The notes beneath the pieces are model-generated. The model was not told where the DNA came from. It did not search any database and was given only the letters and a program-made list of their open reading frames with translations. A program made the position numbers and the translations under genes. Positions 3,167-49,039 of a DNA stretch of 64,000 nucleotides are shown here, in pieces (within the stretch, counting starts at the first letter, position 1; every line of letters begins with the position of its first letter). The stretch comes from Singulisphaera acidiphila DSM 18658 (GTDB lineage Bacteria > Planctomycetota > Planctomycetia > Isosphaerales > Isosphaeraceae). The DNA lies in contig NC_019892.1 in the NCBI RefSeq assembly GCF_000242455.2, forward strand, positions 7,574,744 to 7,638,743, in the 5' to 3' direction.

Positions 3167-6100
3167 ATGTTCTCACGTTTCTTTATCGATCGGCCCATCT
3201 TCGCCACGGTCCTCTCGATCGTGATCACGCTGGCCGGCGGAATCGCCGTGTTCACGCTGCCGATCGCGCAGTACCCCGACATCGCGCCGCCAACGGTGGA
3301 AGTGTCGGCCTACTACCCCGGCGCAAACGCGCAGGTCGTGGCCGACACTGTGGCGGCGCCGATCGAACAGCAGATCAACGGCGTGGAGAACATGCTGTAC
3401 ATGTCGTCGCAATGCACGAACGACGGCATGTACAAGCTGACGATCACTTTCCGGATCGGCGTCGACCTGAACATGGCGCAAGTGCTGGTGCAGAATCGGG
3501 AGTCACTGGCCGAACCGATCCTGCCCGACCTGGTCAAACGACGAGGCGTGACAGTCAAGAAGAAGTCGCCCAGTATCCTCATGATCGTCAACCTGTTCTC
3601 TTCGGACGGAACCCGGGAGAACCTCTACCTGAGCAACTACGCCACGATTCAGCTCCGCGACGAACTGGCTCGCCTCGAGGGCGTCGGCGACATCACCTAC
3701 ATGGGCCAGCGCGACTACAGCATGCGGGTCTGGCTCGATCCCGGCAAAATGTCGTTCCGCAACCTGACCTCGAGCGACGTGACCCGCGCAATCGAACAGC
3801 AGAACGCCCAGGTTGCCGCCGGCCAGATCGGCCAGCCACCGGTCCCGACCGGGCAAGTGTTTCAATACACGATGAGTACCCTCGGCCGGTTGACCGACGC
3901 CGACCAGTTCGCCGATATGATCTTAAAAACGGATGCCGAAGGGCGAATCGTTCGGCTCAAGGACGTCGCCCGAATCGAGCTCGGGGCCCAAGGGTATGAC
4001 CAGAGCTGTACCCTGGACGGCAAGCCGTCGGTGGCCCTCTCGATTTACCAGCGGCCCGGCTCCAACGCGCTGGAAACCGCCCGGCTCGTCCGGCTCAAAA
4101 TGGAAGAGCTCAAGGGCCGGTTTCCGACCGGGCTCGACTATGCGATCGTCTATGACACGACGCCGTTCATCACCGAGTCCGTCAATGAAGTGTTCAAGAC
4201 CCTCCGCGATGCCGTGATCTTGGTGGCGGTGGTTGTTCTCCTCTTTCTTCAGAACTGGCGGTCGGCCGTGATTCCGCTGATCGCCGTTCCGGTGGCGATC
4301 GTCGGTACGTTTGCCATCATGGCGGCGCTCGGGTTCAGCCTGAACAACCTGACGCTGTTCGGCCTTGTCCTGGCCATCGGCATCGTGGTCGACGATGCGA
4401 TCGTCGTCGTCGAGGCGGTGGAACACCACATCGAGTCCGGTCTCTCACCGCGTGACGCGACGGCCAAGGCGATGGAGGAGGTCTCCGGACCGGTCATCGC
4501 CATCGGCCTGGTCCTCACGGCCGTCTTCGTCCCTTGTGCCTTCATCGGGGGGATCGTCGGCCAGTTCTTCCGCCAGTTCGCGCTCACGATCGCGACCTCC
4601 ACCTTGATCTCGACGTTCAACTCGTTGACACTCAGCCCTGCCCTGGCCGCCCTTCTCCTGCGATCGCGAGAGCATGGGGGCGGTGAAGCCCTGCCTCGCC
4701 CGGCCTACGGCCTGCTCGGCGGCTGGCTCGGCTGGAAGTTCCTCACGGCCCCAATCGCCGCCTACCTGAAAACCCACCCGACACTGGCCAACGGTATCGA
4801 TCCCGCCTGGCTGGCAATCGCTGCGGCGATTACGAGTGGTGCCCTCGGCGGCCTGATCGTGAGCCGAATCCTGAACGGGATCTTGGGCGGGATCTTCCGA
4901 GGGTTCAATGCGGGATTTCGGGCAGCCACCGGTGCTTACACAAGGGTTGTGGGCGTGATGCTCCGCGGTTCCTTCATCGTCCTCCTCGGCTATGGCGGCC
5001 TGCTCTATCTGACCTACTTCGGCTTCGCCCATACCCCCACCGGCTTCATCCCGACCCAAGACAAGGGGTATCTGCTGGTCAACGTACAGATGCCGGACTC
5101 GACCTCGCTGGAACAGACCCAGCGCGTGATGCAGCAGATCGAGATCGCATCGGCCAAGGTGAAGGGGGTCAACCATACCGTCGCGATTGCCGGCCAGTCG
5201 ATCTTACTCAATGCCAACGCGCCCAACTTCGGCGCGATGTATGTCATGCTTGATGACTTCTCACACCGTGAATCCCACGAACTCTCGGGCAATGCGATTG
5301 CCGCCAAGCTTCAAACGGTGCTCCAGGATGAGATCCAGGACGGCCTCATCAACATCTTCGGAGCCCCCCCAATCGAGGGCCTTGGCACGGCGGGCGGATT
5401 CAAGCTCGTGGTCGAAGATCGCGGTGATACCGGTCTCGACTCGCTCCAATCCGCGGCCGATCGGATCGTGGGCGAGGGCAACAACACGACAGGTCTTGAA
5501 GGTCTCTTCACCAGCTTCCGGGCGAATACCCCTTGGCTCTTCCTCGACATCGACCGGAACAAGGTTGAGACCATGGGTGTCGCGACAAGCGAAGTATTCA
5601 ACACGCTGCAAGTCTACCTGGGTTCGCTCTACGTCAACGACTTCAACAAGTTCGGCCGCACCTGGCAGGTTAACGTCCAGGGAGATTCCAACTACCGCAA
5701 GCAGATCTCCGACCTCAAACAGCTCAAGATCCGCAACAGGAGCGGAGGCATGGCTCCGCTCGGGGCGATGGCGGAAATCCGCGATATGAACGGGCCGGTC
5801 CTGGTCATGCGGTACAATATGTATCCGGCCGCCGCCATCAATGGCAACCCGGCTCCCGGAGTCAGTTCCGGCCAGGCCATCGGCCTGATGGAAAAGGTCG
5901 CCAAAGCCGAACTCCCACAAACGATGCGTTCCGAATGGACCGAGCTTGCCCTCTTACAGCTTGAGACAGGGTCCACGGCGATGATGGTGTTCGTGCTCGC
6001 CGTTGTGCTCGTCTTCCTGGTCCTCGCCGCGCAGTACGAGAGTTGGTCGCTCCCCTTCTCCGTGATCCTGGTCGTGCCGATGTGTTTGCTCTGCTCGGTC

Positions 6101-37222: not shown

Positions 37223-40027
37223 TCAAGGCTTCGCTTCGGCCTTCGCCAGTAAGGCCGCAACCATCTCGCGCTGAGCGACGAGCTCCGCGTCCTTCGCTCG
37301 CTGTTGCTCGACGACGGCGACCGGCGCCTTGCTGACAAAGGCTTCATTGCCCAGCTTGCTGCGGATCGACGCCAGTTGTCGGTCGATGTCGGACAGGGAC
37401 TTGCGATGGCGCGCGGCCTCGGCCTCCAGGTCGATCACGTCTTCCAGAGGCAGAATAATACGGACGTCGGATCCGACCGCAACCACGCTGCCCGGCGGCT
37501 CCTCGCTCTCGGTGACGATCGTCACCGACTCACACGGTGTGATCGCCCTGAGGAACGGTTCGCCCAGGCGGACCCGAGAGGCGACCCCTTCATTGGCGGC
37601 GACAATGATCGGGTGAATCTTCGCCGCCTTGGGGACATTGTTCTCGGCCAGCAGGTTGCGAATGACGGTGATCGGGCCTTGCCAGTTCTCGACCACGATG
37701 GCCGTGGCCTGTGCGTCGTCCCACGAGTCGGGATAGTTCGGCCAAGGGGCGATGCAAACGCTCTCGGCCGCAGGACCAGGCTCGGGGAGTCCACGGCTGG
37801 GGGCGACCTGGGCGAGCGCCTGCCAGACTTGCTCGGTCACGAACGGCATGATCGGATGGAGCAAGCGGCAGAGGCCGTCAAGGACGGCTGCCACGACCCG
37901 CTGGGCGGTGGGGCGTGACTGCGGGTCACGGAGCCGGCCCTTGGCGAACTCGAGATACCAGTCGCAGAACTCGTTCCAGGTGAAGTCGCGCAGACCCTTA
38001 GTCGCCTCGGCGAAGTGGAACGTCTCCAGGTCACGGGTGGTCGCGTCCTGGACCTCACGCAACCGGCTCAAAATCCAGCGGTCTTCGACGGGGAGCGAGC
38101 GCACGTCGACGCGCTCCGGTTCGTAGCCTTCCAAATTCAAGAGGACGAGGCGGGCGGCATTCCAGAACTTGTTCGGGAACGTTCGTCCCTGTTCGAACCG
38201 CTCCGACGTGTTGACCTGCCGGCCATCGGGCAATTTGGCCTTGTCGACCGGCATCCGCAAATCCTGGGTCTCCGTGGCCGAATAGGCGAGCGTGTACCGC
38301 AGCGCATCGGCACCGTAGAGATCGATGATGTCGACAGGGTCGATGCCGTTGCCGGCCGACTTCGACATCCGCTGCCCTTTGCCGTCCTGGATCACCGGGT
38401 GGATGAAGACGTCCTTGAACGGAACCTCATTGCGATTGAACAGGCCGAACATCACCATCCGGGCCACCCAGAGCGTGATGATGTCGCGGGCGGTCGACAG
38501 CACGTTGGTCGGATAATACTTCGCGAGTTCAGGAGTTTCCTCGGGCCATCCCAGGGTGGAATGCGGCCAGAGGGCGGAGCTGAACCAGGTGTCGAGAACG
38601 TCCGGGTCCTGGCGAAGCTCGAATTGAGGACCGAGAGCATCAGCCGGGAGGTCCGTCTCGGCGCAGATGAGCCAGCCTCCGGCCTCCGCCTTCCGCCACG
38701 AGACGTCGGTACGCCCCGCGAACGCGCGTTCGAGGTCCGCCTCCGTCGCCTCGTCGCAATGCCAGATCGGGATTCGGTGCCCCCACCAGAGCTGCCGGCT
38801 GATGCACCAATCTCGCTTTTCACCCAGCCAGTCGAGATAGCTCTTTGCATAACGCTCGGGATGGATCTTGACCCGGCCCGAGATCACAGCATCCATCGCG
38901 CTCTGGGCAAGGTCGTCCATCCGGACGAACCATTGGTCGGAAAGATAAGGTTCGATCGGAGTCTTGCTCCGATCCGAATAGTTCAGGCGAGTCGCGTAGG
39001 GTTCGGTCTTCTCGAGCAACCCTTGCGCTTCCAGGTCGGCCACCACCCGTTTGCGGACGATCCGCCGGTCGAGGCCGGCGTAGGCGCCTGCGTTCTCGTT
39101 GAACGTACCGTCGGGGTTGAGCAGGTTGATCATCGGCAGGGCGTGCCGAAGGCCGGTCTGATAGTCGTTGGGGTCGTGAGCGGGCGTCACCTTGACACAG
39201 CCGGTGCCGAACTTGGGATCGACGAGCAGGCCGTCGGCGATGATCGGGATTTCGCGACCGGTCAAGGGGAGCGAGACCGATCGACCGATCAGGTGCTGGT
39301 AGCGCGGGTCGTCGGGATGGACGGCCACCGCGGTATCGCCGAGCAAAGTTTCGGGACGGGTCGTCGCGACGTGAAGCGCCTCACCGGTCGTCGAGCCGGC
39401 CACCGGATACCTGATCGTCCAGAGCTGGCCCTTGACGTCCTCGTAGTAGATCTCGTCGTCGGCCACCGCAGTCCGGAGGTGGGCGTCCCAGTTGACCAGC
39501 CGTTTCCCCCGGTAGATCTTGTCGGCCTGGAAGAGCCGGAAGAACGTGACGCGGACGGCCCGGGCACATATTTCATCAAGCGTGAACCGGGTGCGCTCCC
39601 AGTCGCACGAACAGCCCATGAGCCGCAACTGACTCAAAATGCGTTTTTCGTATTCGTCTTTCCAGGCCCAGATTCGTTCGACCAGCGCTTCGCGGCCCAA
39701 GTCATGTCGCGTCTTCTTCTCTTCCTCGAGCAGGCGTCGCTCGACGACGGCCTGCGTGGCGATCCCCGCGTGATCGGTCCCGGGCATCCAGAGGGCGTCA
39801 TACCCTTGCATCCGCTTCCAGCGAATCAAAATATCTTGCAGCGTATTATTGAGCGCATGCCCCAGGTGCAAGGCCCCGGTGACGTTGGGTGGGGGGATGA
39901 CGATCGTATAAGGGGGCTTCTTGCTCGACGGATCGGCGTGGAAGTAACCCTTTTGGAGCCAGAAGTCGTACCAACGGCGCTGGGCGTCTTGCGGGTCGTA
40001 TTGCTTGGGCAGGTCGGCAGTGCTCAT
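37223..40027 (-). CDS. valS: valyl-tRNA synthetase
   Basis: 934-residue class I aminoacyl-tRNA synthetase that charges tRNA-Val. HIGH motif as PPPNVTGALHLGHAL (His 54-His 57). A CP1 editing domain follows (ATTRPETLLGDTAVAVHPDD). The KMSKS motif is present as RMSKS in GQRMSKSAGNGIDPVDI (about residue 555), then the anticodon-binding helices and a C-terminal coiled-coil (RHRKSLSDIDRQLASIRSKL) typical of ValRS. The start at MSTADLPKQYDPQDAQ matches homologues; the longer reading adds 35 unsupported residues. It lies between a DinB-like gene and the BFN gene. Confidence 0.98.
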   Translation of the reverse strand: MSTADLPKQYDPQDAQRRWYDFWLQKGYFHADPSSKKPPYTIVIPPPNVTGALHLGHALNNTLQDILIRWKRMQGYDALWMPGTDHAGIATQAVVERRLLEEEKKTRHDLGREALVERIWAWKDEYEKRILSQLRLMGCSCDWERTRFTLDEICARAVRVTFFRLFQADKIYRGKRLVNWDAHLRTAVADDEIYYEDVKGQLWTIRYPVAGSTTGEALHVATTRPETLLGDTAVAVHPDDPRYQHLIGRSVSLPLTGREIPIIADGLLVDPKFGTGCVKVTPAHDPNDYQTGLRHALPMINLLNPDGTFNENAGAYAGLDRRIVRKRVVADLEAQGLLEKTEPYATRLNYSDRSKTPIEPYLSDQWFVRMDDLAQSAMDAVISGRVKIHPERYAKSYLDWLGEKRDWCISRQLWWGHRIPIWHCDEATEADLERAFAGRTDVSWRKAEAGGWLICAETDLPADALGPQFELRQDPDVLDTWFSSALWPHSTLGWPEETPELAKYYPTNVLSTARDIITLWVARMVMFGLFNRNEVPFKDVFIHPVIQDGKGQRMSKSAGNGIDPVDIIDLYGADALRYTLAYSATETQDLRMPVDKAKLPDGRQVNTSERFEQGRTFPNKFWNAARLVLLNLEGYEPERVDVRSLPVEDRWILSRLREVQDATTRDLETFHFAEATKGLRDFTWNEFCDWYLEFAKGRLRDPQSRPTAQRVVAAVLDGLCRLLHPIMPFVTEQVWQALAQVAPSRGLPEPGPAAESVCIAPWPNYPDSWDDAQATAIVVENWQGPITVIRNLLAENNVPKAAKIHPIIVAANEGVASRVRLGEPFLRAITPCESVTIVTESEEPPGSVVAVGSDVRIILPLEDVIDLEAEAARHRKSLSDIDRQLASIRSKLGNEAFVSKAPVAVVEQQRAKDAELVAQREMVAALLAKAEAKP

Positions 40028-43375: not shown

Positions 43376-43807
43376 GTGCGTAAAGTCCAGATGGTGACTG
43401 ACCGCGAACTGGAGATCCTGAAGATCTTGTGGGCGCGGGAGAAGGCAAGCGTACGAGAGGTCCAGGACGACCTCAACAAGTCGGCGGGGCCGGTCGCCTA
43501 CAGCACCGTGCAAACGCTGCTCAACATCATGGAAGACAAGAAGGGGCTCGTCCGCCATGTTGTCGAGGGGCGTACTTTTATCTACATCCCCAAGAAATCA
43601 TCGGATCGGACGATTCACGAACTAACCAAGCGGTTCGTCGACCGCGTGTTCGATGGAGCGCTCGACCGGGTGATGGTCGCTCTGCTCGATTCTCGGTCGC
43701 CGACCCCGGCGGAGTTCGACCGCCTCCGCGCCATGATTGACGAAGCGGAACGCCAGACGGCCGTGAAGGCCGAGACCGCCGAAGTGGGATCCGTTGAAGA
43801 ATTCTGA
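43376..43807 (+). CDS. BlaI/MecI/CopY-family repressor
   Basis: 143 residues. Winged-helix DNA-binding N-terminus: MVTDRELEILKILWAREKAS, then VREVQDDLNKSAGPVAYSTV, TLLNIMEDKKGLVRHVVEGR and FIYIPKKSS. A C-terminal dimerisation helix follows (TKRFVDRVFDGALDRVMVAL). The GTG start is supported by GAGGGAGA about 8 nt upstream; an ATG five codons later is possible. In known systems the repressor is cleaved when the partner membrane metallopeptidase senses a signal. The partner gene follows 190 bp downstream. Confidence 0.93.
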   Translation: MRKVQMVTDRELEILKILWAREKASVREVQDDLNKSAGPVAYSTVQTLLNIMEDKKGLVRHVVEGRTFIYIPKKSSDRTIHELTKRFVDRVFDGALDRVMVALLDSRSPTPAEFDRLRAMIDEAERQTAVKAETAEVGSVEEF

Positions 43808-43996
43808 AGAGCGAAGCCGGCCGCTCCCGATGCGATTCCTCCGGCCTTCCGCTCCCTCCGACCTGGACGTTCTGCTGTTGAGAGGTGCAGATCCGGCCGT
43901 CGAGAGGTTGGGGTTTACGCTTGCTTCTCGATGGCCGTGTCTCGCTGCTGACTTTGATCGGACTCCGTGTTTCTCGCGATTCGAGAGGCCAACTTC

Positions 43997-45493
43997 ATGG
44001 CCCACTGGATCGATCGACTGGGTGAATTGCTCCTTGACTCATCCCTTGCGGCCACGGCTCTGCTGAGCTTAGTCGCCTTGGCGATGATCGGCTGCCGTCA
44101 ACCCGTGCGCCGGATCTGCCTGGCTCGCGCGGCCATCCTCAGCGTTTTGGCACTGATTCCACTGGTGATTTTTGCTCCATTTCCCCGGATCTCTTTGAAT
44201 CGGGTCGCGCACCAATCGGGCCTTCTCTCCCACCCGATCTTCGCCTCTCACCTTCGCCATCTTTCGAATGAGACGAAGGCTCCCACTCCCGCCCCCGGTT
44301 CGGGTCTCACGCCCTCGGCTCCGGACGCCCCCCGCCCCCTTCACATGCTGATCGGGCCACCGCCGCGTTGGTTGATCGTCGCTTATCTGGTTGGGACGGC
44401 CTCCGCCCTTGCCTGGCTGCTACTGGGACACTGGGGATTGAGTTGGCTCACATCACGTTCCGATGAGGTCACACCACTTTCGGCCGAGCTCTACAACCGC
44501 TTGCCGGTCCAGGGGCACCGGCCTCGCCTTCGGGTCAGCGCCCGGGTCCGCCGCCCCGCACTCGTGGGCTTATACCGCCAGACGATCCTGATCCCGGTGG
44601 TCCTCGACCTGCCTGAGTCTGCCGACAAGCTGCGATTGAGCCTCTTGCACGAACTGGCCCACACCGAACGAAAGGACTCTTGGTTCGGCTTAGCCAGCAG
44701 CCTCGCCCAAGCGTTCTGGTTCTTCATTCCGCCACTCTGGTGGATCCGGGCGCAGATGCGGCTCGATCAAGAGTTCATGGCCGACCGTGGAGCGGCCCGG
44801 GCCTACGGTCCATTCCAATCCTACGCAGCCAGCCTTGTGAAAATCGCCAGCGGCGAGGGCGATACGGAGTTGAAATCCACTGGAGTACCGCAACAAACCA
44901 CCCCGCAAGTGACCAACACCTCGGCTCTCTTTCAGCGCGTGCTAATGCTCGTTCAATGCCCCTTCTCGCTCGAATCTCACCCCCCGCGCTGGTGGGCCTA
45001 TACGCTACCAAGTCTCATCCTGCTCGGAACGATGGTCGCCTCGTGCTTGACCCTTCGGATTTCCGACCTGACCACTTCCTCCAAGCTTCCTCCCAAGGCA
45101 ACCACCCCAAGAAGCCACTCCTTTCGGATGTCGCACTTGGTCGCAAATCCATCGTCGCAATCCCCGGTAGGGTTTCCCCTGGTGTATGACTTGCCCCTCC
45201 CCCTTCCCAGGTCGTTCGATCTGAGCGTGGACGTCTGGGGCGATGAAGACACGCTTCCCCTGACGAAAGTGGTGGGAATTCGACTGCACCCACCGGGATT
45301 GCGTGCCGGGTCCCCTTCGGCTCCGATGGGCTGGCATCGCGTCCAGATCCGCCGCATGGCCGACGAAATCACCGTGGACCTCGATCAACTCCCCCTCCCC
45401 ACGAGCACCGACCAGGAGACGACGCCCTCGCTCACCTTCGAAAGCCCTGCGGGGTATCCGGTCCATTTCCGAAACCTTCTTCTGACCTGGTAA
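43997..45493 (+). CDS. BlaR1-like M56 membrane metallopeptidase
   Basis: 498 residues. Membrane helices at the N-terminus (LLLDSSLAATALLSLVALAM; AAILSVLALIPLVIFAPF), a further pair around WLIVAYLVGTASALAWLLLG, and one near residue 340 (TLPSLILLGTMVASCLTLRI). The zinc site is LLHELAHTERKDSWFG (HExxH, about residue 218), with downstream acidic LDQEFMADRGAARAYGP as third ligand. The C-terminal extracytoplasmic part (about 150 residues) is short, Pro/Ser-rich and lacks the penicillin-binding SxxK module of BlaR1, so it probably senses something else. Start at MAHWIDRL, where similarity to the family begins. Confidence 0.88.
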   Translation: MAHWIDRLGELLLDSSLAATALLSLVALAMIGCRQPVRRICLARAAILSVLALIPLVIFAPFPRISLNRVAHQSGLLSHPIFASHLRHLSNETKAPTPAPGSGLTPSAPDAPRPLHMLIGPPPRWLIVAYLVGTASALAWLLLGHWGLSWLTSRSDEVTPLSAELYNRLPVQGHRPRLRVSARVRRPALVGLYRQTILIPVVLDLPESADKLRLSLLHELAHTERKDSWFGLASSLAQAFWFFIPPLWWIRAQMRLDQEFMADRGAARAYGPFQSYAASLVKIASGEGDTELKSTGVPQQTTPQVTNTSALFQRVLMLVQCPFSLESHPPRWWAYTLPSLILLGTMVASCLTLRISDLTTSSKLPPKATTPRSHSFRMSHLVANPSSQSPVGFPLVYDLPLPLPRSFDLSVDVWGDEDTLPLTKVVGIRLHPPGLRAGSPSAPMGWHRVQIRRMADEITVDLDQLPLPTSTDQETTPSLTFESPAGYPVHFRNLLLTW

Positions 45494-45693
45494 GAACTTC
45501 GCGACCGCGTCCCTGCCAAAACGACAGCGTCCTGATTCTCCTGCCACTTTGACCCGATCGGTCCTTCGGTTTTGGCACCCACGCTCGGCTCGGGGAGAGG
45601 GTCCAAATCCAGTCGAATCAGACCCATCAAACGCAACTTCTTCCCAGGCATTGGCTAACGTCACCCCAAATTGGCAGTCCACGGAAAAAGGGG

Positions 45694-45739
45694 CTTCCGG
45701 CACGTTCTCTGCAATACTTCCGGCACGTTCTCTGCAATA
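45694..45739 (+). promoter_or_regulatory. two tandem sigma-54-type promoters
   Basis: A 23-bp sequence is repeated exactly, head to tail (45694-45716 and 45717-45739). Each copy contains CGGCACGTTCTCTGCA, with GG and GC separated by 10 bp as in the -24/-12 consensus TGGCACG-N4-TTGCW. The downstream copy would start transcription near 45747, about 40 nt before the first small heat-shock gene. This is the only such site I found. Confidence 0.7.
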
Positions 45740-45785
45740 GTTGAAGTTATCCTCCGAACTACCCTTTCAAGGGGAGGTCACTTCG

Positions 45786-46226
45786 ATGAGCGGACTGAAC
45801 TGGCAGCGGCGTTGGGATCCGTTTCGCGACCTACAACGCGAAGTGGGGCGACTGTTTGAGAGCTTTGAGCCACTCCATTCCTGGCGGCTGAGTCGGCACG
45901 ATCCGTCGATCAATCTCTACGATGGCGGAGACAAATATTTTCTTACCGCGCAGTTGCCGGGAATGGCCCCGGAAGACCTCGACCTGTCAATCACAGGGGA
46001 GGCCCTCACCCTGAGGGGGGAACGGAAGCGGCCGGAAGGGGTGGCGGACGAGAGTTACCGTCGTCAAGAGCGCCAGTTCGGGCGCTGGACTCGAACGGTC
46101 TCGCTGCCTGATCGTGTGGACAGCGGCCAGGTCACGGCCACGTTCGCTCAAGGTCTGCTCACGATCACGCTTCCGAAGGCAGAGAGTGCCAAGCCACGAC
46201 AGATCCCCATCAAGGCGACCACCTGA
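45786..46226 (+). CDS. small heat-shock protein (Hsp20), first of three
   Basis: 146-residue alpha-crystallin-domain chaperone that holds unfolding proteins. GGGGAGG about 8 nt before the ATG fixes the start and removes a longer unsupported reading. N-terminal arm WDPFRDLQREVGRLFESF, then the domain: LYDGGDKYFLTAQLPGMAPE, LDLSITGEALTLRGERKRPE, RQFGRWTRTVSLPDRVD and the C-terminal strand TFAQGLLTITLPKAESAKPR, ending with the I-x-I-like IPIK. Two more sHSP genes follow at 29 bp and 158 bp. The tandem sigma-54-type promoter lies just upstream. Confidence 0.95.
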   Translation: MSGLNWQRRWDPFRDLQREVGRLFESFEPLHSWRLSRHDPSINLYDGGDKYFLTAQLPGMAPEDLDLSITGEALTLRGERKRPEGVADESYRRQERQFGRWTRTVSLPDRVDSGQVTATFAQGLLTITLPKAESAKPRQIPIKATT

Positions 46227-46255: not shown

Positions 46256-46687
46256 ATGAGCGTCAGCAACCACTCGATCCCGGTCGCGGTCGATCGGCCA
46301 GTCTCCCGCGACTCGGGCAACCGGCAAGCTTCCACCTCCGAATCCTTGAAGCCTCCGGCCGCCTATTTCACACCGCCGATCGATATTCACGAGAGTCCGG
46401 ACGGCCTGATCCTCGAGGCCGACCTGCCGGGCGCGACCGAAAACCAGGTGAGCATTCAGCTCGAGGACAACGTCCTGAGCCTCTCTGCTCAGGTCAACAC
46501 TTCAACCCCCGAAGGATCGCGGATCCTTCATCAGGAATATCAGGTTGGCGACTTCTACCGCTCGTTCATCCTGAGCGATGAGGTAGATCGGAGCCGGATC
46601 ACGGCCGAGCTGCGCAACGGCGTTCTGCGATTGATCCTCCCGAAGGCCGAGCGGGTCAAGACCCATCGCATCGAGATCAAATCGTAG
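46256..46687 (+). CDS. small heat-shock protein (Hsp20), second of three
   Basis: 143 residues. After a 38-residue arm, the alpha-crystallin domain: YFTPPIDIHESPDGLILEAD, LPGATENQVSIQLEDNVLSL, YQVGDFYRSFILSDEVDRSR and LRNGVLRLILPKAERVKTHR, ending IEI. The domain is more diverged from the first protein than the first and third are from each other, with the shorter GDFYRSF form instead of RQFG. It starts 29 bp after the first gene, so the two are probably on one transcript. Confidence 0.94.
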   Translation: MSVSNHSIPVAVDRPVSRDSGNRQASTSESLKPPAAYFTPPIDIHESPDGLILEADLPGATENQVSIQLEDNVLSLSAQVNTSTPEGSRILHQEYQVGDFYRSFILSDEVDRSRITAELRNGVLRLILPKAERVKTHRIEIKS

Positions 46688-46845: not shown

Positions 46846-47316
46846 ATGGCACGACCGATCCCCTGGCGGCGGGAGATCTCCGCCCCGTTTCACGTCATCC
46901 AGAACGAGCTCAACCGGCTGATGGAGGAATACTGGAACCCCGCGCGATTGGGTCCATCTGAGCCGGCTCCGATGGACCTCGAACCTACCGGTTGGAGTCC
47001 CGCGGTCGACATGTTCGAGACCGTCGACGAAATCATCCTCGTCGCCGAACTCCCGGGCGTTGACCCGGCTTCGATCGACCTCTCGGTGACCGGCAATGTT
47101 CTCAGCCTGCGCGGAGTCAAGAATCCCGATGCTTCGATTGAAGGGCAGACTCCGCTCCATGAGCGGCAGTTCGGAACCTTTCACCGGCAGATCGTGCTCT
47201 CGAACCAGGTCAACTTCGACGCGGCCCAGGCTGAGGCTCGTCTCGGCGTTTTGAGGGTCAAGCTCCCCAAACAGGACGTGGCCAAACCACGAACCATCCC
47301 GGTTCAGAACGTCTAA
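46846..47316 (+). CDS. small heat-shock protein (Hsp20), third of three
   Basis: 156 residues. N-terminal arm FHVIQNELNRLMEEYWNPAR, then WSPAVDMFETVDEIILVAEL, PGVDPASIDLSVTGNVLSLR, RQFGTFHRQIVLSNQVNFDA and LGVLRVKLPKQDVAKPR, ending IPV. AAGGAG about 8 nt upstream supports the start. The 158-bp gap after the second gene contains a T-run (CCTTTTTTTCTTTG) and may hold a separate promoter, so this member might be controlled independently. Confidence 0.95.
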   Translation: MARPIPWRREISAPFHVIQNELNRLMEEYWNPARLGPSEPAPMDLEPTGWSPAVDMFETVDEIILVAELPGVDPASIDLSVTGNVLSLRGVKNPDASIEGQTPLHERQFGTFHRQIVLSNQVNFDAAQAEARLGVLRVKLPKQDVAKPRTIPVQNV

Positions 47317-47635: not shown

Positions 47636-47690
47636 TGCAACGAAGAAGAATGCTGTGGTCTTAACCTCCTGTCTTCCGAAAAAGCAGATC

Positions 47691-47766
47691 ATGATGGTGG
47701 GCCGCGCCCACCCTACAAGCTGAGAATCGATTCGAATTCTCTTGTAGGATAGGCACGGCCCATCAT
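47691..47766. repeat. 76-bp inverted-repeat (MITE-like) element
   Basis: Both ends read ATGATGGG(...)CCTACAAG inward: ATGATGGTGGGCCGCGCCCA on the left, complement ATGATGGGCCGTGCCTATCC on the right, with a short AT-rich centre. It would fold into one long hairpin. Size and form are those of a REP/MITE element, or of a hairpin terminator for the preceding gene. Confidence 0.7.
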
Positions 47767-47797
47767 GGATTTGGCTTGAGGGTGAAGCGGAAGAGAG

Positions 47798-49039
47798 CAG
47801 GGCGATTGCGCCACAATACGCAATCTGCGACACTTGAGACACAGTAACTCGTGATCTCGTCAGGGCTGAACACGCCGAGCGTTTTGCCCAGCCTTCTCGG
47901 GATCGACCTCTCGTGGCCAATGATCTCTACGCTTTCATCGAAGATCACTTCGCGACTTTGACTGACCCACACCGACGTAAGCTCGTCTACCCGCTCACCA
48001 ACATCCTGACCAGCGCCCTCTGTCCAGTCATCTCGGGGGGCGACGATTTCGTCTCGATCGCCGAATGGGGACGCCAGAAACGGGCATGCCTGGTCAGATT
48101 CCTCCAGTTGATCAACGGCATCCCCTCTCATGACCCATTCAATGCTATCTTCAGGGACATCAAGCCCGCCGAGTTCGAGCGTTGCCTGCTCAGTGGGGTC
48201 ACCTCACTTCACGAGGTGACCGCCGGGCAGGTCGTCGCCATCGACGGCAAGACCCTCCGCCAGAACTACGACAAGGCCAATGCCAAGTCGGCCATCCATA
48301 GGGTCAGCGCCTGCGCCACTGCCAATCACGTCAGCCGGGGGCAAGTCGTCGTCGATGCCAAGAGCAACGAGATCACCGCAATCCCCAAGTTGCTGGAGAT
48401 CCTGGACGTGTCGGGCTGTCTGGTGACCATCGACGCCATGGGGGAGCAGACCGAGATCGCCGAGAAGATCGTCGCGGGGGGCGCCGACTACGTGCTGGCG
48501 GTGAAGGGAAATCAGCCCACCCTATTCGTGAGCCACATGGACGATGACTTCGCCCGGGTGAAGGCGAGCCGACATGAATCGGACGATAAAGGCCATGGTC
48601 GCACGGAGCACCGGAGTTACTACGTCTGCGACGTGCCCGACGACCTGACCGATCGGGTCCGCTGGAAAGGCTTGAAGCAGATCGGGGTGGCGATCAGTGA
48701 GACGATGCGGGGTAGCAAGTCGTGCGATGAAGTGCGCGACTCTATCCTGAGTAAGAAGATGAGCGCCAAGCAGTTTGGTGCGGCAATGCGCGGGCACTGG
48801 GGGATCGAGAATTCGCTGCACTGGCAACTCGACGTCACCTTCGGCGAGGACGCCTGCCGCGTCCGCCTGGGCCTGGCCGACGCCAACCTCAGCGTCGTCC
48901 GCCGGGCCGCTCTCGGCCTGCTCAAGAACGAGACCTCCGAGAAGATCGGCGTGAAGAACAAACGCCTCGCCGCCGCATGCAATACACGCTATATGGAGAA
49001 AGTGCTCACCGGATCCTGACTTATGGTGCAATCGCCCTG
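47798..49039 (+). mobile_element. ISAs1-family insertion sequence, complete
   Basis: Inverted repeats CAGGGCGATTGCGCCACA (47798 on) and the complement of TATGGTGCAATCGCCCTG (to 49039) enclose one full transposase gene. Its own flanks show no short direct repeat, consistent with the outer target duplication belonging to the larger unit. Confidence 0.85.
47913..49019 (+). CDS. ISAs1-family transposase, intact
   Basis: 368 residues, one frame. N-terminal DDE_Tnp_1-associated region (HFATLTDPHRRKLVYPLTNI, then ALCPVISGGDDFVSIAEWG). Catalytic part: VVAIDGKTLRQNYDKANAKS (first Asp), VTIDAMGEQTEIAEKIVAGG (second Asp), then YVLAVKGNQPTL and RGHWGIENSLHWQLDVTFGE (Glu in the YREK-like region). It ends NLSVVRRAALGLLKNETSEK with the usual family tail. 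It appears competent for transposition and could have mobilised the flanking cargo. Confidence 0.93.
   Translation: MANDLYAFIEDHFATLTDPHRRKLVYPLTNILTSALCPVISGGDDFVSIAEWGRQKRACLVRFLQLINGIPSHDPFNAIFRDIKPAEFERCLLSGVTSLHEVTAGQVVAIDGKTLRQNYDKANAKSAIHRVSACATANHVSRGQVVVDAKSNEITAIPKLLEILDVSGCLVTIDAMGEQTEIAEKIVAGGADYVLAVKGNQPTLFVSHMDDDFARVKASRHESDDKGHGRTEHRSYYVCDVPDDLTDRVRWKGLKQIGVAISETMRGSKSCDEVRDSILSKKMSAKQFGAAMRGHWGIENSLHWQLDVTFGEDACRVRLGLADANLSVVRRAALGLLKNETSEKIGVKNKRLAAACNTRYMEKVLTGS

Follow-up and report, generated by a model that had tools for sequence, protein, structure and literature searches.

Duplicated -24/-12 element upstream of an hsp20 cluster in Singulisphaera acidiphila and a predicted sigma-54 chaperone regulon in Planctomycetia

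In textbook accounts, the heat-shock genes of bacteria are controlled by sigma-32 or by repressors of the HrcA type. In the HrcA/CIRCE system, inverted repeats are shared in front of dnaK and groE. Inverted repeats are also shared before dnaK in Planctomycetia and before groE in S. acidiphila, but there the repeats are located far upstream of a sigma-54 box, and no HrcA was found in 120 Planctomycetia genomes. Promoters that depend on sigma-54 and an enhancer-binding protein (EBP) of the NtrC family resemble the locus described here in their GG-N10-GC box, in their palindromic sites 100-210 bp upstream, and in the combination of one rpoN with many EBPs. They differ in that the targets here are the main cytosolic chaperones. 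The phage-shock response (PspF, sigma-54) is likewise a stress response that acts through sigma-54 and an EBP, although the Psp genes serve the inner membrane and not cytosolic folding. In Chlamydia, a member of the same superphylum, CtcB/CtcC (AtoS/AtoC) is a two-component sigma-54 activator, and hrcA-grpE-dnaK is listed as a sigma-54 target (PMC8762339).

Sigma-54 control of planctomycete Hsp20 has already been predicted and is not a new idea. A 2025 study predicted that sigma-54 promoters of Planctomycetia are enriched at COGs for chaperones, among them IbpA (PMC12316311). As here, IbpA/Hsp20, DnaK, and GroEL/ES of Planctomycetia (and also of Bacteroidota) are flagged, in that study by promoter matrices; the difference is that promoter enrichment is counted per COG. 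Its main text mentions no activator palindrome, upstream activating site, spacing, or activator. Hsp20, DnaK, and GroEL are heat-induced in Rhodopirellula (PMC2754498). In R. baltica, rpoH is reported to be present, and no regulation of rpoH, rpoE, or rpoN was seen on heat shock (PMC2754498). Chaperone induction of this kind would be compatible with an EBP as the activator. The unchanged rpoN mRNA of R. baltica neither supports nor excludes EBP control. RpoH is hard to separate from other sigma-70 paralogues by profile. Searches for literature precedent on Stigmatella hspA and sigma-54, on RpoN and small heat-shock proteins, and on the Desulfovibrio sigma-54 regulome found none.

The window analyzed here is the whole 64,000-nucleotide stretch from S. 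acidiphila DSM 18658, whose genome (9.76 Mb, four contigs) is referred to as the source genome. Three hsp20 genes are encoded on the plus strand of the window, at 45786..46226 (Pfam HSP20, E=2.6e-19; ATG at 45786), 46256..46687 (E=6e-17), and 46846..47316 (E=2.2e-11). A ribosome-binding site, AGGGGAGG, can be read from the sequence at 45770..45777 on the same strand. Since no additional -24/-12 box of at least 13 bits was found before hsp20 gene 3, this gene is probably co-transcribed with the cluster.

Upstream of the first gene, positions 45694-45739 form a single array with a period of 23, 2.0 copies, and a 100% match (Tandem Repeats Finder, with a second repeat search in agreement). The unit, CTTCCGGCACGTTCTCTGCAATA, occupies 45694..45716 and 45717..45739 on the plus strand. 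Each unit holds one plus-strand -24/-12 box, CGGCACGTTCTCTGCA, and these boxes are termed P1 (45698..45713) and P2 (45721..45736). The exact 23-bp tandem repeat, with two boxes in which GG and GC are separated by 10 bp, is as the preliminary description had reported it. P1 and P2 match TGGCACG-N4-TTGCW at 10/12 informative positions, and in both the GG-N10-GC lies in the TGGCAC/TTGC-like surroundings of a sigma-54 promoter. All leader lengths given here assume a start 12 nt past the C of GC. The predicted starts are then 45724 for P1 and 45747 for P2, with leaders of 62 and 39 nt to the first hsp20 ATG. A dinucleotide Markov model gives 4.25 chance matches of equal quality per 64 kb on both strands, so a lone -24/-12 box is not significant; a promoter could not be established from the window alone. 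Random matching does not account for the exact 23-bp duplication.

A match to hsp20 gene 1 is found in 40/45 genomes of the family, the Isosphaeraceae, and 30 loci were examined with up to 1.5 kb upstream of each. A plain-consensus scan of the coding strand from -150 to -50, done without a trained matrix and with a box cut-off of 13/16, located a -24/-12 box in 27/30 orthologues. The controls, which were stretches of the same loci and the opposite strand, gave 0-2/30. A good box is absent from two hsp20 loci (L044 and L066), and hsp20 of genome G004 has neither palindrome nor box. The comparison with related genomes that had been proposed as a check is therefore positive for the -24/-12 box, in the same place.

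The hsp20 upstream regions also share a palindrome, CTGCCA-N3-TGGCAG, that has an AT-rich center and is usually present in two copies. Among the 26 hsp20 loci where each copy can be placed, the centers are at -203.9 and -155.8 relative to the predicted start, each with an SD of 4.6 bp. These genes have leaders of 33 to 147 nt, and for the distance between distal palindrome and ATG the SD is 23.4. Because the distance to the box varies so much less than the distance to the ATG, it is the promoter box, and not the gene, to which the palindromes are tied, in the manner of an enhancer. These palindromes near -204 and -156 also answer the proposed check for enhancer-binding-protein sites upstream. 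No earlier report of CTGCCA-N3-TGGCAG as an EBP site was found in the literature searched, with supplements and many subscription papers outside that search. Together, the box in 27/30 orthologues and the palindromes at a fixed distance from it strongly support the predicted sigma-54 control of hsp20.

In the window, the predicted distal activator palindrome is CTGCCAAAACGACAG at 45513..45527, with a matrix score of 18.3; palindromes scoring at least 18 were absent from 1.28 Mb of Markov sequence. The predicted second activator palindrome, CTGCCACTTTGACCC at 45541..45555, is degenerate and, at 9.1 bits, weak alone; its counterpart in the sister species is CTGCCAACTTGGTCC. The two are 204 and 176 bp from the P1 start. 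A promoter-adjacent palindrome, ACCCCAAATTGGCAG at 45663..45677, has one arm intact and scores 12.3, and its sister-species counterpart is GCCCCAAAATGGCAG. No strand is assigned to these three sites.

The palindrome matrix was trained on hsp20 and then tested on dnaK upstream regions that it had not seen. Palindromes are found before dnaK in 30/30 Isosphaeraceae (0.4 expected), almost always near -173 and -133. The same holds for the presence of palindromes in 23/25 genomes from 13 other Planctomycetia families (0.65 expected). The dnaK genes of G086 and G053 have no palindrome above threshold. A correctly placed -24/-12 box precedes dnaK in 29/30 Isosphaeraceae and in 23/25 of the other Planctomycetia. 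The view that control of hsp20 is an oddity of one cluster does not hold, since dnaK across the class and both groE operons of the source genome share its elements.

In the source genome, dnaK and the two groE operons (L095, G000:C1:1867000-1877000, minus strand; L093; L094) carry the palindrome and a -24/-12 box as at hsp20. The dnaK palindrome is paired with TGGCACTAGCCTTGCA upstream of the gene, and clpB lies further downstream. The groES-groEL operon is preceded by a palindrome and AGGCACGTCTCTTGCA, and the groEL-groES-groEL operon by a palindrome and CGGTATGCCAGTTGCA. The groE boxes are weaker, at 8.2 and 9.4 bits, and the groE palindrome and box are shown in the source genome only, where the dnaK elements are shown across the class. 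When up to one mismatch is allowed in the 12 positions, the source genome contains 24 palindromes, chaperone loci among them, and 3/24 of these sites fall in the 400 bp before four chaperone operons (P near 1e-8, a rough Poisson estimate). The perfect TGCCANNNTGGCA matches of this genome do not include hsp20 and have no -24/-12 box nearby. The predicted regulon is selective, for neither palindrome nor box is present at a second dnaK of the source genome or at two further hsp20 genes. Members were sought by pattern and family searches, and the list is partial.

HrcA was found in 0/120 Planctomycetia genomes, while the same search was positive in 7/14 control genomes. The absence of HrcA from Planctomycetia agrees with PMC4989314. 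CIRCE, TTAGCACTC-N9-GAGTGCTAA, had no match above 13/18 before dnaK or groE in the loci scanned. On these two results, an HrcA/CIRCE regulon was discounted.

The same palindrome and box are present at hsp20, dnaK, and groE. From the sequence comparisons, the hsp20 cluster is very probably a member of a sigma-54/EBP chaperone regulon with dnaK and groE, and its doubled box a recent change. In the proposed mechanism, sigma-54 RNA polymerase would transcribe the cluster from the -24/-12 promoter. An EBP bound to CTGCCA-N3-TGGCAG sites, which in the family lie about 204 and 156 bp before the start, would activate it at a distance, presumably through DNA looping and ATP-driven opening of the closed complex, as is usual for EBPs. 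The signal may be heat or misfolded protein. The broader proposal stands at about even chances: that hsp20, dnaK, and groE of Planctomycetia are one sigma-54 regulon in which a dedicated enhancer and a conserved two-component EBP replace HrcA/CIRCE. If true, Planctomycetia would turn on heat-shock transcription by positive control that depends on an enhancer and is driven by ATP. A class-wide chaperone regulon that uses sigma-54 and a dedicated enhancer would represent an additional strategy, in a group where no HrcA is found.

The source genome encodes one rpoN (a single Sigma54_DBD match, E=7.7e-62) and about 20 EBPs whose sigma-54 interaction domain is intact, and no EBP gene was found near its hsp20 or dnaK. 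Orthology of the EBPs was assessed in four comparison genomes, two of only 3.0-3.3 Mb, and the widely conserved EBPs left by this comparison are L021, L026, and L025. L021 is a receiver-AAA+-Fis response regulator (Sigma54_activat, E=1.6e-70), and a gene for a 266-aa histidine kinase precedes it. Chlamydia CtcC is without a DNA-binding domain (PMC12282069), whereas a Fis-type DNA-binding domain is present in L021. In several genomes its neighborhood reads pnp, kinase, EBP, and mutL, where pnp and mutL are named from sequence. A conserved kinase-EBP pair between pnp-like and mutL-like genes can be seen at L189:3116-5293 (candidate EBP at 3923-5293), and this neighborhood was also examined at L199, L195, and L197; in L197 the EBP is not directly preceded by a kinase gene and has a perfect palindrome upstream.

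L021 is present in 119/120 Planctomycetia genomes. Its orthologue in G116 has a perfect palindrome 41-55 bp before the start codon, with no kinase gene directly before it, and the orthologue in G058 has CTGTCAAATTGGCAG about 188 bp upstream. Most L021 orthologues have no upstream palindrome of their own (two near-perfect among about 25 sampled). Because of this conservation and the palindromes in G116 and G058, L021 is favored as the candidate EBP of the chaperone regulon, a tentative assignment somewhat short of an even chance. It is quite possible that the regulon is right but is activated by a different EBP, either the receiver-less L026 or L025. L026 has reciprocal best hits in 4/4 comparison genomes and L025 in 3/4. 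PspF is an EBP held by its partner PspA, and a receiver-less EBP restrained by a partner, as L026 might be, would suit a misfolding signal. Against L026 and L025, no close upstream palindrome was present in the few orthologues read, versus two for L021, a weak comparison given the unequal sampling. For testing, the regulon supplies a precisely defined DNA motif and a few candidate activators.

Two further features are located near rpoN. A palindrome, CTGCCAAATTTGCAG, at L092:4863-4877, lies about 40 bp past the rpoN stop; it has no -24/-12 box nearby and was set aside as a probable chance match. An EBP-like response regulator at L092:6705-8210 seems to be missing the GAFTGA loop for sigma-54 contact and may be no activator.

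The doubling of the box is private to the source genome. Where the window has two copies, the sister species (G038, the only other member of the genus compared) has one, and a comparable tandem repeat is absent from all 29 other orthologous hsp20 upstream regions compared. The tandem doubling as a conserved design is thus not borne out. The distal palindrome is at -204 relative to P1, the family value, and at -227 relative to P2, and the 39-nt leader of P2 equals the leader of the single box in the sister species. By its spacing, copy 1 would retain the ancestral distance to the enhancer and copy 2 the ancestral distance to the ATG. One promoter at each of the old distances is exactly what a 23-bp tandem duplication produces. 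P2 had been put forward as the driver of hsp20 on account of its distance to the ATG; the 39-nt leader agrees with this, but enhancer spacing makes P1 the family-typical promoter.

The footprint of sigma-54 polymerase exceeds 23 bp, so P1 and P2 should compete. The two boxes would be too close for simultaneous polymerases, and the probable competition would lead to two start sites. Any change in promoter strength caused by the doubling would be modest at most. It is rather unlikely that the doubled box is a tandem promoter under selection, raising or tuning expression in S. acidiphila, as opposed to a neutral duplication. The copies are identical across all 23 bp and each keeps one ancestral distance, which would fit selection, but a very recent duplication would equally show identity, and the doubling is confined to one species and missing in the 29 other orthologues. 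The doubling is best read as a recent tandem duplication, and possibly a neutral one. As a private change, it is a natural experiment that sets enhancer spacing against leader length in the choice between identical sigma-54 boxes.

In hsp20 loci, a third palindrome frequently abuts or overlaps the -24 element. In 10 loci its center is at -28, and the -24 element itself serves as the right arm (e.g., L043, L050, L053, L055-L057, L060, L061, L063, and L069). This arrangement would be expected if the palindrome were the operator of an HrcA-like heat-shock repressor acting on a sigma-70 promoter, with the boxes as by-products of TGGCA half-sites. Such a repressor is very improbable, however. The distal palindromes are 130-210 bp from the start and fixed to the box, which is far for repression, and the GC half is present at the exact spacing where no palindrome overlaps it (the window, L042, and most dnaK loci). 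Under sigma-54/EBP control, overlap of the palindrome with the -24 element might mean competition between activator and polymerase, and feedback is possible. A chance resemblance to -24/-12, with hsp20 under a different sigma factor (of the sigma-32 type or ECF), is barely credible: matches of equal quality do arise by chance about 4 times per 64 kb, but conservation is position-specific in 27/30 orthologues, and the dnaK set is independent evidence.

The surroundings of the cluster contain several other features. Genes for a BlaI-type repressor (Penicillinase_R) and a BlaR1-type M56 peptidase are located directly upstream of the hsp20 cluster, at 43376-45493 on the same strand. A complete DDE transposase gene (DDE_Tnp_1 and DDE_Tnp_1_assoc) lies immediately 3' of the cluster, at 47913-49019. 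The interval from hsp20 gene 3 to the transposase gene holds an inverted repeat, GTGGGCCGCGCCCACCCTACAAG ... CTTGTAGGATAGGCACGGCCCATC, at 47690-47770, which resembles a small mobile repeat. Elsewhere in the window, a further -24/-12-like sequence, TGGAACGAGTTCTGCG, is present on the minus strand at 37978, with 15.8 bits.
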